From Aphanothece sacrum FPU1 (lineage in GTDB: Bacteria > Cyanobacteriota > Cyanobacteriia > Cyanobacteriales > Microcystaceae), in NCBI RefSeq assembly GCF_003864295.1, contig NZ_BDQK01000016.1, positions 124,001 through 188,000 on the forward strand: a DNA stretch of 64,000 nt, written 5' to 3'. Below the pieces are notes generated by a model. It did not search any database, was not told the origin of the DNA, and was given only the letters and a program-made list of their open reading frames with translations. The position numbers were made by a program, and so were the translations under genes. This document shows positions 8,092-22,092 of the stretch, piece after piece; position 1 is the first letter of the stretch; every line of letters starts with the position of its first letter.

Positions 8092-8664
8092 ATGGCTACT
8101 ACTTCTGATGAGGTTTGGCAATTATTAGGGGAATTAATCGAAGCCCAAAAAGAAACCAGACGGATTTTACTCCAACAAGCTCAAGAGGCTGAAAAAAGTC
8201 GTCAGCAGACTGACCGACAAATTCAACAAGTTAATGAACAATTAGGTAAATTAGGTAATCGTTTAGGGGAATTTGTGGAATGGCAAGTGCGTCCTGCGGC
8301 TGTACGTTTATTCCAAGAAAGAGGAATTGATGTTCATGAATTACATACAGAAGTGTCAGTAAAAAGACCTCAAGGTGGTCTAGAAATTGATTTATTAGTA
8401 GTGAATGAAAGAGAAGTAATATTAATTGAAGTTAAAAGTAAATTAACTCAAAGAGATGTAGATGAACATTTAGAACGTTTAGCTAAATTTAAAGAATTTA
8501 TGCCCCGTTATAGTGATGCAAAGGCTTTGGGTGCAGTTGCAGCTATGATAGTAACAGATGAGGTAGCAAATTATGCTTATCGTCGAGGTTTATTTGTGTT
8601 AGCACAATCAGGAGAAAGTGTAATTATTTTGAATGATGCTCAATTTAAGCCGCAAATTTGGTAG
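8092..8664 (+). CDS. coiled-coil PD-(D/E)XK nuclease-like protein (DUF3782-type), paralogue 2
   Basis: 190 aa, nearly identical to the upstream paralogue outside the coiled coil, which is shortened to about 25 residues. The nuclease-like core is kept: D100 in LEIDLLV, with E113 and K115 in LIEVKSKL. The 5' leader (GAATTAGAGA, then GAGGAATTAATC before the ATG) is also shared, so the tandem duplication included the promoter region. Few substitutions separate the two domains (for example NETEV/NEREV), which points to recent duplication or gene conversion. An IS200/IS605 element lies downstream. Confidence 0.75.
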   Translation: MATTSDEVWQLLGELIEAQKETRRILLQQAQEAEKSRQQTDRQIQQVNEQLGKLGNRLGEFVEWQVRPAAVRLFQERGIDVHELHTEVSVKRPQGGLEIDLLVVNEREVILIEVKSKLTQRDVDEHLERLAKFKEFMPRYSDAKALGAVAAMIVTDEVANYAYRRGLFVLAQSGESVIILNDAQFKPQIW

Positions 8665-8700
8665 ACTGAGTAGTCACATATAAATAAACGGCTATATATA

Positions 8701-8780
8701 TATTAATAACTGTTACGAAGCTTGAAAACCTTTGCTGTTGCCTAACCGTATAGATAGTAGGATGGGTTCCCAACCCATCC
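8701..8780. repeat. direct repeat left of the IS200/IS605 element
   Basis: An 80-bp block including TTGCCTAACCGTATAGATAG and ending in a GGATGGGTT/AACCCATCC palindrome. It recurs at 10585-10671 on the other side of the transposon, with a differently sequenced but equally palindromic end. A more diverged relative lies at 28037-28152. Confidence 0.75.
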
Positions 8781-8809
8781 TATTTATTGCTATCTAAAAT
8801 GCAAAAAGA

Positions 8810-8886
8810 GGACTCCCGCTACACCGCCTAAGCGGTTAGCGGTGAGATGAATTTTTGCCAACAAATAAACCGACCGTAGGGAGTCC
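8810..8886. repeat. left-end imperfect palindromes of the IS200/IS605 element
   Basis: Holds the hairpin CCGCTA(C)ACCGC / GCGGT-TAGCGG (8816-8842), nearly identical to the right-end hairpin. It is enclosed by an outer inverted pair GGACTCCC (8810-8817) / GGGAGTCC (8879-8886). Y1 transposases recognise such subterminal hairpins. Confidence 0.65.
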
Positions 8887-9303
8887 TTATTTCTTAGGGG
8901 AATTTTGGTTTTCAACATAATTTTTAAGTTGTTCAACAGTTACGCCACCACAACTTGCCACAAAATAAGAGCCTGTCCAAAAATAAGGTTTTCCATAAAA
9001 GTATTTCTTAGACAAGTCAGGGTTTTCTTTTCGTATCAACCTACTACTAACAGTTTTTAAATTACCGATTAAAGTAGATAAAGGTTTATCGGGTTTGTAG
9101 TCAATGAGCAAATGAACATGGTCGGACTCGCCATTAAATTCTAGTAATTCACAATCCCATTTATTTAAAGTGTCTTTAAAGATTTCTTGAAGTCTAGACA
9201 GTATAGGTTCACTGATAGCCTGTTTTCTGTATTTAACGACAAAAACAATATGAGCGTTAAGTCTGTAGACCGATCTAAATCCATGATTGTAAGCGTTTGA
9301 CAT
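8887..9303 (-). CDS. tnpA: IS200/IS605 Y1 transposase TnpA
   Basis: 138 aa, standard length. The HUH motif is H62-V-H64 in ESDHVHLLIDYKP and the catalytic tyrosine is Y129 in EQLKNYVENQ; both are intact. The protein nicks and rejoins single-stranded transposon ends through 5'-phosphotyrosine intermediates, acting as a dimer on the subterminal hairpins. Divergent from tnpB with a 52-bp gap holding both starts. With the catalytic residues and both end hairpins present, the element may still be mobile. Confidence 0.93.
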   Translation of the reverse strand: MSNAYNHGFRSVYRLNAHIVFVVKYRKQAISEPILSRLQEIFKDTLNKWDCELLEFNGESDHVHLLIDYKPDKPLSTLIGNLKTVSSRLIRKENPDLSKKYFYGKPYFWTGSYFVASCGGVTVEQLKNYVENQNSPKK

Positions 9304-9355
9304 ATTAAAGCGTTAAGTGTTACACTGGCTAATGTAACACAACAGGTCGAAAGCC

Positions 9356-10474
9356 GTGTTAAATGTCTTAAAAGTCAGAATTTATCCAAATCAGCCACAA
9401 GAAATTGCCTTAAATCGAAATTTAGGCTGTGCAAGATTTGTGTATAATTTTTACTTAAATAAGACTAACAATCAGTATCAAGAAACTGGGATTGGGATGA
9501 CTTATTGCCAAATGGCAAAAGACCTAACTCAGCTAAAAAAGCTCCCTGATTTTGAATGGTTGCAAGAATCAACGGCTGCCACCTTACAACAGGCACTCAA
9601 AAACTTAGAAGCTGCTTTTAAAAATTTCTTTTCTAAAAGGGCTAAATTTCCTAAGTTTAAGAGTAAATATAAACAACAATCAATCCGTTACCCTGAAGGT
9701 TGTTCTCTTAATAACAACGGTTTAAAGCTCCCAAAACTGGGGATTGTTAAAGCTAAACTTTCAAAAGAGATTTTAGGAAAGATTAAGTCAGTGACAGTTT
9801 CAAAAACAAGTACAGGTAAATATTTTGCCTCTATTTTATTTGAATCTGACGATTTAATCATCAATAAAACCTCTAAAGTCTCAGGAATTGATTTAGGCTT
9901 ATCTAGCCTAGTGACAGTCTTTGATGGTGAAACAACTTATAAGGTTGACCCAATTAAACCAACTAGAAAATATGCCAAACGATTAAAAAGGAGACAACAG
10001 AAATTATCTCGTAGAACCAAGGGTTCTAACAACCGTAGAAAAGCGATTAAAGAAGTCGCTCTTGTTCACGAAAAAATTACTAATACTAGACAAGATTTTC
10101 TCCACAAACTCTCAAGAAAGCTCGTTGACGAAAACCAAGTCATTGTAGCAGAAAACCTTTGTATAAAAGGATTAGCGCGTACCAAATTAGCTAAATCAAT
10201 ACTTGATGCTGGATTTGGTATGTTACTAAACTTCTTAAGCTACAAGCTAGAAAGAGAGGGGGGGAAACTTGTTCAAGTTGACAGATTTTATCCAAGTACA
10301 AAAACCTGTTCTTGCTGCGGATTCAAAAATAATTTGATAAATTTAAGCATCAGAGATTGGGTTTGTCCTAATTGTCAAACTCACCATGACCGAGACGAAA
10401 ACGCAGCTAAAAATATCAGAGCAGAAGGATTAAGAATACTGTCAATAAATACCGCCGGACAGACGGAATTTTAA
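9356..10474 (+). CDS. tnpB: RNA-guided nuclease TnpB (IS200/IS605 accessory protein)
   Basis: 372 aa from a GTG start. The RuvC residues are all present: D179 in SGIDLGLSS, E266 in VIVAENLCIKG and D345 in HHDRDENAAKNI. A zinc ribbon (C318, C321, C337, C340) sits between the second and third RuvC motifs. TnpB cuts DNA next to a transposon-adjacent motif using an RNA made from the right end of the element, which favours transposon retention; it is the ancestor of Cas12. The basic N-terminus and the short tail IRAEGLRILSINTAGQTEF are typical. No frameshift is seen, so it is likely functional. Confidence 0.93.
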   Translation: MLNVLKVRIYPNQPQEIALNRNLGCARFVYNFYLNKTNNQYQETGIGMTYCQMAKDLTQLKKLPDFEWLQESTAATLQQALKNLEAAFKNFFSKRAKFPKFKSKYKQQSIRYPEGCSLNNNGLKLPKLGIVKAKLSKEILGKIKSVTVSKTSTGKYFASILFESDDLIINKTSKVSGIDLGLSSLVTVFDGETTYKVDPIKPTRKYAKRLKRRQQKLSRRTKGSNNRRKAIKEVALVHEKITNTRQDFLHKLSRKLVDENQVIVAENLCIKGLARTKLAKSILDAGFGMLLNFLSYKLEREGGKLVQVDRFYPSTKTCSCCGFKNNLINLSIRDWVCPNCQTHHDRDENAAKNIRAEGLRILSINTAGQTEF

Positions 10475-19285: not shown

Positions 19286-19639
19286 ATGACATCAGGCGAA
19301 AAAATCGGCATTATTACGGCCACCATAGAGGAAAAGGGAAGCAGAGGAAGTGAAGATACGGGTGGGAGACTAATAAGAGAAGCTATCATTCCTGAAGTTA
19401 TGGGGGTGAGGCGAACTGAGGTGGAGTTAGATAAGCTAAAAGCGGAAATTAAGGCATTTATCGGGGCTATGAGAGAAATGCTCGATGAAGCTGATCCCCC
19501 TAATAGTCAAATGAGATTAGAAGAAGTAGAATTATCTGTCGAGATTAATGGTGAGGGAAAGGTTAGTTTATTGGGAATAGGAGGGAAAGCAGGAGGAAAA
19601 GGCGCAATGACCTTCAAATTTAAGCGAAAAGATGGCTAA
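19286..19639 (+). CDS. effector-associated (Pepco/Trypco1-like) small protein
   Basis: 117 aa. The N-terminus GEKIGIITATIEEKGS is beta-rich, a helix follows (VELDKLKAEIKAFIGAMREM), and the C-terminus EVELSVEINGEGKVSLLGIG ends in a Gly-rich GGKAGGKGAMTFKFKRK. This strand-helix-strand layout with a Gly-rich last hairpin resembles the small domains described next to caspases and trypsins in bacterial conflict systems; assignment to Pepco rather than Trypco1 is by gene context. The ATG has AGAGAGG 6 bases upstream. It overlaps the caspase start by 8 bp, implying translational coupling and joint function. Confidence 0.65.
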   Translation: MTSGEKIGIITATIEEKGSRGSEDTGGRLIREAIIPEVMGVRRTEVELDKLKAEIKAFIGAMREMLDEADPPNSQMRLEEVELSVEINGEGKVSLLGIGGKAGGKGAMTFKFKRKDG

Positions 19640-21326
19640 GAATTGGGCGATCGCTATTGGTGTCAATCATTATGATAATCTCAAAAACCTTCATTTTGCT
19701 AAACGGGATGCGGAGGCTATAGATATATGGTGTAAACATCCCCTAGAAGGTAATTTTGACAGAGTTTTTCTATTTACAGAAGATTCCCCTGCAATACCAG
19801 TTAATCCCCCCATTTCTACTAAACCAACTTACGGCAGTCTCAGAAGATTTCTCCGAGCGCAATTTGATACACCCTTATTAGGTGCGGGGGATAATTTATG
19901 GTTCTTTTTTGCTGGACATGGTAAACGTGATCAAGATCGGGATTATTTGATGTTATCTGATAGTGATCCTGGTGATGTGGCCGGAAGTGCGCTATCTGTA
20001 AGTTGGATAACTGAGCGTTTACGACGGTGTGGGGCGGATAATGTGGTATTATTCCTGGATGCTTGCCGTTCGGATGGCAGTCGAGATGGTAGAGGTATAG
20101 GTTTAGAACAACCTCAAGGGGTGATCACTTTTTATGGGTGTGACCCGAAAATGGTGTCTTATGAGATTGACGAACTACAACAAGGTGCTTTTACCTATGC
20201 CCTGTTAGAAGCTCTCAGAATCAAAGGAACTGACAACTGTGCGACCGTAGAACGTCTTTATGATAGATTACGTTATCGTGTGCCAGAAATTGTCACACGC
20301 TATCAAAAACCCCTTATTCAGCGTCCCTATGCGATCGCGGAACCGGTCACAAAATATCATTTAATCCTGTTACCTCAACAAGCAACCCTAAAAGATGCAG
20401 AAACCCTCAAATTAGACGCTGTGAGGGAAGAAAGAAGGAAAAATTATGCTCTAGCTAGGCAGTTGTGGATTAGGGTGTTAGCTATTTCACCCGCAGATAG
20501 AGACGCGATCGATGCTATTGAAGATTTAGCAAGGTCAGGAAATAGACAAAACAGGGACATTAGGCCTTCTAATGAACCATCAAGCAATAGAGGAACAAGA
20601 CAAGTAAGGAATGTAAGACCACCTATATCATTACCGACCTTACCCACTATCAGGGTGACTCGCAGACAGATACTAACAACACTGGGTTTAACAGGGGCAG
20701 GAATCACCGTATTTGGGGTAGGAAAGGGGATACAACAACATTTAGCTAACTTACCTCCATCTGAACCTTTACCCAGTGCTAAAACGGGAAAATTCGAGTT
20801 TCCAGTAGTGACAGTTAACAACAAAGGGGAAGAAATTAAGCGTGAAACGAAACAAGCAGAATATAGAGCAGAATATTTAAACAAAAATGTGCTTTTAGAG
20901 ATGGTGTCCATCCCTGGTGGAACTTTTATGATGGGAACGGAGGATGCTGAAATTGAGAGATTGGTGAAAAAGTTTAACTGGGACGGTTTCAGAAGGGAAA
21001 AACCCCAACATGAGGTAACAGTTCCAGCTTTTTGGATGGGTAAATATCCCATTACCCAAAAACAATGGAAGGCGATCGCCGCTTTAAGCAAAATAGATAT
21101 TGATCTTCAACCAGACCCATCATTTTTCAAAGGGGATGACCGTCCTGTAACAAATGTTAGCTGGAATGAGTCTGTAGAGTTCTGTAAGCGACTATCCAAG
21201 CTAACGGGCAAAGATTATCGCCTACCCTCAGAAGCAGAGTGGGAATACGCTTGTAGGGCAGGAACAACCACTCCTTTTCATTTTGGGGAAACTATCACAG
21301 GGGATTTAGCTAATTATGAGGCCTAG
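19632..21326 (+). CDS. caspase family protein (metacaspase-like) fused to FGE-sulfatase domain, frameshifted
   Basis: 564 aa up to a premature stop. The N-terminal peptidase C14 domain has the dyad His96 (FFAGHGKR) and Cys145 (LFLDACRS) and the start [11 protein letters not shown]. Residues 265-300 resemble a TPR hairpin. A helix [20 protein letters not shown] (344-363) could be a membrane or Tat-like anchor, and an FGE-sulfatase/SUMF1 domain begins at [12 protein letters not shown] (425). The frame stops at TAG after NYEA, while the rest of the FGE domain continues in the +1 frame (21316-21714). Removing one C from GGCCTAG (21317-21323 area) restores [14 protein letters not shown]. Likely role: cell-death or conflict protease sensing ligands through its C-terminal domain. 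Confidence 0.85.
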
Positions 21327-21714
21327 ACAAACCTTTGCTAATGAACCCCCAGGAAAATATCGAGGAGAAACGACCCCTGTAGGTCAATTTCCCCCCAATG
21401 GGTTTGGTTTATACGATATGCACGGGAATGTGTGGGAATGGTGCTTAGATCCTTGGCATGATAACTATAATGGCGCACCGAATGACGGTAGTGTGTGGGA
21501 TGAGCAGAGTCTGGCGACAAATAATGATGAATATATTGTAAAGAATTATAAAAAACTATTGACAGATGAGCAATTTCGTGTACTGCGGGGCGGTTCCTGG
21601 GGCAACAATCCTTATAACTGCCGTTCTGCTATCCGCGTCATCGACTATACGCGCGACAACCACGACGATTATAACGGTTTTCGTCTGGTATGCCTGTTCG
21701 GTAGACCTCTTTAA
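21316..21714 (+). pseudogene. C-terminal FGE-sulfatase part of the frameshifted caspase gene
   Basis: This continues the upstream caspase gene in the +1 frame. The FGE/CLec-fold blocks are [33 protein letters not shown] and [19 protein letters not shown], ending GFRLVC. The apparent ATG at 21316 is an internal codon, not a real start. The final 25 codons before GFRLV show adenine-site diversification as in DGR variable regions. If the one-base insertion is real, this part is translated only through frameshifting; otherwise it is a sequencing error and the gene encodes about 693 aa. Confidence 0.8.
21586..21714 (+). other. candidate DGR variable region (VR)
   Basis: Between RGGSW and GFRLVC (codons 21601-21675), 17 of 25 codons are AAC/AAT or differ from AAC/AAT only at the first two bases (ATC, GTC, GAC, CAC, TAT, GAT, GGC). 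Seven of the other eight codons (CCT, TGC, CGT, TCT, GCT, CGC, CGC) contain no A. This is the pattern left by adenine-specific mutagenic retrohoming. The segment sits at the ligand-binding end of a CLec fold, the usual DGR target site. No template repeat or reverse transcriptase was found in the window. Confidence 0.7.
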
Positions 21715-21792
21715 CCCTCTGCTCTTTTCCCCTATTGCCCTTTATCCTTCCGTCAAATTTTTTTTGGCAATTGTTACATTTCTTAACATAAA

Positions 21793-21904: not shown

Positions 21905-22092
21905 GGTTCTACCGGACAAGTTATGCTAAATTATCACAAACAATGGACTTTAACTCTAAAGAGTTAAGCTATACAAACAAAGGTTGCCTACGCAACCTAG
22001 AATTTAGTCCGCCTTCGCGGACTTCGTTTCTATAGCATAAGGCTTTAGCCTTTTATTCATTATTAATTTAGCATAGTAAGTCCGGTAGAACC
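21905..22092 (-). repeat. hairpin repeat family, copy A (full-length with terminal inverted repeats)
   Basis: 188 bp with terminal inverted repeats of about 26 bp: GGTTCTACCGGAC at 21905 and its complement GTCCGGTAGAACC ending at 22092, each continuing into the ATGCTAAA/TTTAGCAT arms. Inside, read on the minus strand, are three hairpins: GTCCGC-GAAG-GCGGAC, AGGTTGC-GTAG-GCAACCT and TTAACTC-TTTA-GAGTTAA. It is an inverted copy of the repeat at 57097-57247 and shares its architecture with copies at 29771, 43477 and 43612. The 448-bp gap 21715-22162 holds only this and the smaller palindrome at 21793. Confidence 0.85.

Follow-up and report, generated by a model that had tools for sequence, protein, structure and literature searches.

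In cyanobacteria, diversity-generating retroelements (DGRs) act on variable proteins with C-type-lectin/FGE domains, on orthocaspase fusions and on remote variable proteins, as described in the available text of Vallota-Eastman et al. 2020 (PMC7517822). The same text includes all3226, a paralogue with remnant homology between template (TR) and variable region (VR) and no proximal reverse transcriptase (RT); the loss of diversification components is, as an idea, already published there. DGRs also diversify ternary conflict systems, whose components include vWA, MoxR and FGE domains, according to the available portions of Kaur et al. 2020 (PMC7159879) and Dore et al. 2024 (PMC10907252). An intact, plasmid-borne element, with avd and an RNA-directed DNA polymerase annotated in the DGR, is found in Microcystis aeruginosa FD4 (plasmid p1FD4, NZ_CP046974.1).

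The subject of this report is a 64,000-nucleotide stretch of the genome of Aphanothece sacrum FPU1 (the window), and within it the 3′ end of a gene encoding a caspase and an FGE-sulfatase domain. Positions 21592–21703 are, in the reading that we hold to be probable as a whole, the VR of a cyanobacterial Avd/RT-type DGR that has lost its machinery, leaving a scar on contig C13 and a set of frozen VRs. Like the DGRs covered in the available text of PMC7517822, the locus joins a caspase-type domain to a lectin fold, has its VR at the 3′ end, exhibits A-directed change and belongs to a dispersed set of VRs; unlike those systems, it lies in an assembled genome that lacks an RT altogether, and one of the VRs is fused to a template 3′ flank. 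This fusion points to a deletion route. Caspase–lectin DGR targets are thus already known, and the window feature is an example of a decayed state. The ternary conflict systems, as far as the available portions of both papers go, are resembled in two respects: a second FGE gene of the genome, on C13, stands beside MoxR-like and vWA genes, and the window follows an adaptor-plus-peptidase logic. They differ in that the machinery is gone here and that the window target is a Pepco and caspase pair, not the vWA set. The p1FD4 element has the order VR-avd-RT-TR-VR and the same core and template flank as here, whereas its targets are a SAV_2336-N protein and an FGE protein. Among solved DGR variable proteins, Treponema denticola TvpA (PDB 2y3c) is matched by the FGE profile of the present family (E=3.5e-21), best in the N-terminal part (profile positions 27–104), with the VR outside that comparison.

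Gene pair and reading frame in the window

The features of the window are as follows, all on the + strand.

19286–19639, +: Pepco adaptor gene, 117 aa (Pfam PF24393, E=1.7e-26)
19632–21326, +: caspase (Peptidase_C14) plus N-terminal half of the FGE-sulfatase domain, 564 aa (PF00656, E=4.2e-17; PF03781, E=1.8e-27)
21316–21714, +: C-terminal half of the FGE domain, 132 codons in a shifted frame whose end holds the VR (PF03781, E=9.4e-24)
21320–21326, +: position of the single inserted base, as judged against the intact orthologue of genome G017 (locus L107); the frame closes here in TAG (orthologue comparison)
21592–21703, +: DGR VR core, 112 bp (comparison of three copies within the same genome)
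21704–21718, +: VR-type 3′ boundary with the stop codon, unlike the template-type boundary of relatives' TRs and of the C13 copy

The 3′ end of the Pepco gene overlaps the start of the caspase-FGE gene. In the caspase, the motifs GHG (residue 95) and DAC (residue 143) are both present, and we take them to be the catalytic His and Cys; PADLOC assigned only its caspase model to the gene. The VR core comprises the last 112 bases before GGTA/GACCTC... and lies at the 3′ end of the FGE coding sequence; the stop codon ends 11 bases downstream of it.

The FGE domain that carries the VR is split by a frameshift, which the sequence-only reading had missed. An extra base near 21323 puts a TAG in frame, so that the caspase frame stops at 21326, upstream of the VR; the second half of the gene has its own ATG at 21316. 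The intact orthologue in G017 is a 673-aa open frame with 73% identity over residues 1–563. A programmed frameshift at 21323 was considered and rejected, as it finds no support in this orthologue, the frame of which is continuous. The extra base may be a sequencing error. In the assembly, the caspase half stops short of the variable end, and the earlier claim that the caspase carries a hypervariable sensor is not supported by the assembled sequence, in which the VR sits in the separate 132-codon frame.

About 190 bp past the gene, at 21905–22092, lies a MITE-like element; its terminal inverted repeats are 29 nt long and 86% complementary. The element has some 40 near-full-length copies (>=85%) in the genome, with 40 of 277 first-look candidates scored.

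Three copies and adenine-directed change

The suspicion of a DGR first came from codon shape. Between RGGSW and GFRLVC, 17 of the 25 codons are AAC/AAT or NNC/NNT at the sites named by the earlier reader, a figure that a hand count reproduced, and seven of the other eight contain no A (CCT, TGC, CGT, TCT, GCT, CGC, CGC), the eighth being ACG. Since this partition is partly post hoc (CGC, TGC and others have C or T in third place too), little can be concluded from codon shape by itself, and it is the comparison of copies that is decisive. A DNA search of the A. sacrum genome with the window VR returned two further strong copies, C3:206259–206411 and C13:520878–521015, each 87% identical; beyond these there was nothing better than E=1.

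Aligned by codon, the three cores agree in 90 of 112 columns; the other 22, which vary, are distributed 13/8/1 over the three codon positions. In window coordinates, the varying columns span 21604–21674 and are followed by a constant tail. The templates of three relatives (G044, G039 and G054) served as guide; 37 of the 112 columns have an A in at least one of them. With this guide, 21 of the 22 variable columns fall on template-A columns (hypergeometric P=8.2e-12). Only core column 78 departs from this, with T/C at a third codon position, so 74 of the 75 non-A columns are identical. The DGR signature is therefore real: a VR in an FGE domain, borne out by A-directed differences among three copies in one genome. 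Against single templates the picture is less clean (A mismatches 11–21 of 31–35; non-A mismatches 7–14 of 77–81; Fisher p between 3e-8 and 0.046 in nine comparisons), because templates have diverged between species.

It might be argued that no DGR is involved, and that an Asn-rich FGE C-terminus with a preference for codons ending in C or T has simply diverged; FGE-domain proteins are indeed common (39 of the 50 family genomes match a caspase-FGE query at E<=1e-30), and FGE ends are rich in Asn. Such divergence would have to account for variation at template A's in 21 of 22 columns, with near-perfect identity across three loci elsewhere in the core, for the template flank on C13 and for the complete machinery in relatives. 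It is extremely improbable, and, as judged from the copy comparison, already refuted.

The core stands out against its surroundings. The C13 and window cores are 87% identical, and the alignable segments of the two genes 64–77% (the longest, at 75%, includes the core). Window and C3 have the segment 21487–21791 in common, with 13 differences in 75 positions before the core, 19 in 112 within it and 1 in 58 after it. With only one of the 75 non-A core columns varying, copying from a common template postdates the divergence of the upstream flanks. The scarcity of such differences suggests either that the RT was lost recently or that it remains on a missing replicon.

At the 3′ boundary, the window and C3 copies are of VR type, while relatives' TRs and the C13 copy are of TR type; these two types presumably correspond to IMH and IMH*. 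A search with the DNA pattern of the constant tail gave no match in genome and viral contig collections, from which the present genome was perhaps left out.

The C3 copy was considered as a candidate template and rejected, having 3 AAC/AAT triplets in 132 bases as against 14–15 in the first four templates found; it is also in frame with FGE coding. It is a fragment of an FGE target. In this part of contig C3 (locus L037, around 8507–9398), the fragment lies next to a TPR gene, and two small genes beside it resemble, by eye, a HigBA-type toxin–antitoxin pair.

Cassettes of relatives and the missing machinery

What a complete element looks like can be seen in the comparison set, 50 genomes of the same cyanobacterial family with A. 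sacrum included. Of these, 25 match the window VR at E<=1e-5 (some matches are short and perhaps not VRs); seven have an RT resembling the one in G039 (E<=1e-20), with eight loci that have an unbroken RT and several broken ones. The cassette order is target(VR)-avd-RT-TR-target(VR), and avd, RT, TR and VR occur together in one cassette in L069, L071, L073, L136, L138 and L139. The RTs are assigned to RVT_1 and PHROG 1423, and the Avd proteins to PF22296 and PHROG 3206 ('Avd protein of DGR'). DGR RTs are recognised by an SQ motif; in three loci the RT has IGNLTSQ (L069, L071 and L073), which fits [IV]GxxxSQ, together with YVDD. The templates are A-rich, with repeated AAC/AAT codons; that of G049 (L140:6523–6659) has an insertion of about 25 bp in its 3′ part relative to the others. 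Over 10 TR–VR pairs from six loci with intact RT, 156 of 315 template A's are changed. For the other bases the count is 3 of 776, with a single pair of L139 accounting for them all; two pairs of L068, the template of which is 3 nt longer, were dropped, and L137 and L140 yielded no pair.

The closest counterpart of the window is L136 of G041, with the order Pepco-caspase-FGE(VR)-avd-RT-TR-FGE(VR); its caspase is 44% and its Pepco protein 37% identical to those of the window. Since the target in cis is here a Pepco and caspase-FGE pair, the architecture seen in the window is that of a direct DGR target.

Broken cassettes are also present among the relatives (L141, L142, L143, L145 and L068), with truncated or split RT, an avd remnant, or an RT tail beside FGE genes. 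In two Microcystis genomes, Pepco-caspase-FGE(VR) is followed only by a remnant of the RT (residues 262–351; L141) or of avd (residues 1–27; L145). Decay by truncated or split avd or RT, as in L068, L141, L142 and L145, represents routes other than recombination between VR and TR, and a second VR/TR scar was not found among the relatives' loci.

In A. sacrum, neither template nor RT is at the window locus, as the sequence-only reading had supposed; it placed them elsewhere in the genome or considered them lost. A near-identical AAC/AAT repeat next to an RT, which it proposed to look for, was sought in the assembled genome and none was found. The assembly (20 contigs, 99.36% complete) has no RVT_1 match at E<=0.001, the best being partial with E=0.08 and 14 bits. 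The DGR RT of a relative (P0001) gave no match at E<=10; the same query matches 7 of the 50 family genomes, and so works. For Avd (query P0002), the best hit in the genome is a 33%-identical scrap of 52 residues with E=0.23 and one stop inside. As to an A-rich template repeat, the genome has only the three strong copies described, none with the AAC/AAT density of a template, and no fourth strong copy that could serve as one. Of the two earlier suggestions, loss fits the assembled genome, which lacks RT, Avd and template and has a VR/TR-flank junction on C13. The absence of template and RT from the genome had been named in advance as grounds for abandoning a DGR origin, and would have led to its being wrongly rejected.

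The DGR could still be alive in trans, with RT, avd and template on an unassembled plasmid or contig and the three VRs still being rewritten. The identity of all but one non-A column suggests recent homing, the FD4 cassette is carried on a 43.6-kb plasmid, and the available text of PMC7517822 describes cyanobacterial VRs that lie far from any RT; with an assembly of 20 contigs, an RT could still sit on a plasmid that escaped it. The completeness of the assembly, the lack in it of RVT_1 over the cut-off, Avd and template, the fusion of the C13 VR to a template flank, by which at least one cassette would have been deleted, and the state of the targets (a fragment on C3, a frameshift in the window) together make continued activity quite unlikely.

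The C13 junction and variable regions without reverse transcriptase

The FGE gene on C13 (L038:6338–8125), which retains its VR, adjoins MoxR-like and vWA genes, identified as vWA_CoxE by Pfam and as MoxR by sequence similarity to relatives. Its VR has a template-type end, beyond which the template 3′ flank follows for about 160 bp, 83–88% identical to the template flanks of five relatives and 74% to that of a sixth. This flank occurs once in the A. sacrum genome, on C13, without a template. Each cassette of the relatives has a single long match to this flank, placed after the TR, and the VRs are without it. Among the 43 RT-negative genomes of the 50, A. sacrum is the only one in which the flank match exceeds 150 bp; in G043, a piece of 50 bp lies close to an RT fragment. 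The protein encoded on C13 is intact and reads across the junction into 37 extra residues. An AlphaFold model of its FGE domain (17 sequences) was poor, with a mean pLDDT of 46, and RNAalifold of the template flank (6 sequences) gave 45 pairs with two-sided change in only one, too little variation to argue for a structure.

The junction is best read, from its sequence, as the product of recombination between VR and TR with deletion of avd and RT. VR1 and TR are in direct orientation around avd and RT in all seven relative loci where both were found, and a crossover between them would give exactly the C13 product. Past the flank, a second target gene would be expected; it is absent on C13, and so more than one event is needed. 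No published report of a VR/TR deletion scar was found in the open-licence literature searched.

Alternatively, the junction might stem from over-long retrohoming or gene conversion that copied the template 3′ flank into the target, with separate loss of avd and RT. In the Bordetella phage DGR, the template RNA includes sequence beyond the TR, and a cDNA could in principle carry the flank. Here, the flank extends over about 160 bp, whereas relatives' VRs do not have it and each cassette has a single long match, at the TR; we think this origin unlikely.

The favoured course of events, loss of the machinery with the crossover as its simplest route, can be outlined as follows. An ancestor would have held a cassette target(VR1)-avd-RT-TR-target2. 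By mutagenic retrohoming, copies of one template with errors at A would have entered no fewer than three FGE ends: that of the window caspase-FGE gene, that of the vWA/MoxR-associated gene on C13, and that of the present fragment on C3, each end presumably serving to sense targets. The machinery would later have disappeared from the assembled genome. In relatives, VR1 and TR are direct repeats on either side of avd and RT; their homologous recombination would delete both genes and leave a hybrid repeat. The remaining VRs would then be inactive and frozen, on C13 in an intact protein with its 37-residue tail, on C3 in a fragment, and in the window cut off from the caspase.

Template types differ between lineages. 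The VR of the G017 orthologue is of another type and fits the type-B template of G041 (16 of 30 A's and 2 of 77 other bases changed); after the stop codon, G017 and window are alike again (87% in one 60-base window). L144 (G017:C321) and window positions 19632–21791 thus present orthologous caspase-FGE genes with VRs of two template types and similar sequence on both sides. By these alignments, one and the same caspase-FGE gene has received its variable sequence from different DGR templates, depending on the lineage. The G041 template was rejected as the source of the type-B VRs of G044 and G042, with 11 and 20 of 77 non-A differences.

VRs may also occur without RT elsewhere in the family. 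A P0001-like RT is lacking in 18 of the 25 genomes that have VR-like matches; several are draft assemblies, and the counts are to be taken as leads. An RVT_1 scan of seven of these 18 found no match in G000, G022 and G007; G009, G012, G014 and G017 have RVT_1 matches, of kinds that were left unclassified. In G022 (Microcystis; L148–L158), 11 FGE ends are of VR type, and RVT_1 finds nothing at E<=0.001. Five of the 11 share the template length of L139 (12–21 of 30 A's and 3–6 of 74 other bases changed), three are comparable only with a template of another type (12–13 of 70 non-A bases changed), and three with none.

Small stand-alone FGE-domain proteins are encoded by the Microcystis phages Ma-LMM01 (gp037, L161:2574–3314) and MaMV-DL01 (L162:2068–2625), with ends that resemble host DGR VRs (RGGSWG...CRSAIR...GFRV). 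Compared ungapped with one template of differing length, these ends differ at 16 and 18 of 30 A's and at 24 and 25 of 75 other bases, figures that, the lengths being unequal, carry no weight in either direction. They are possible decoys or captured sensors.

For the question of how DGRs are switched off or lost after a useful variant has been made, the VR/TR junction offers a concrete, searchable scar of DGR removal. True VRs can exist in a genome that RT-first surveys would miss, and genomes with VRs and no RT are natural material for testing selection on locked repertoires. Tentatively, recombination between VR and TR might even constitute a built-in off switch: a single crossover would remove the mutator, fix the chosen target variant and leave the hybrid repeat with its flank. 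Genomes with several VRs and no RT, such as those of A. sacrum (three VRs) and G022 (11), would then hold frozen receptor repertoires, selected and locked.
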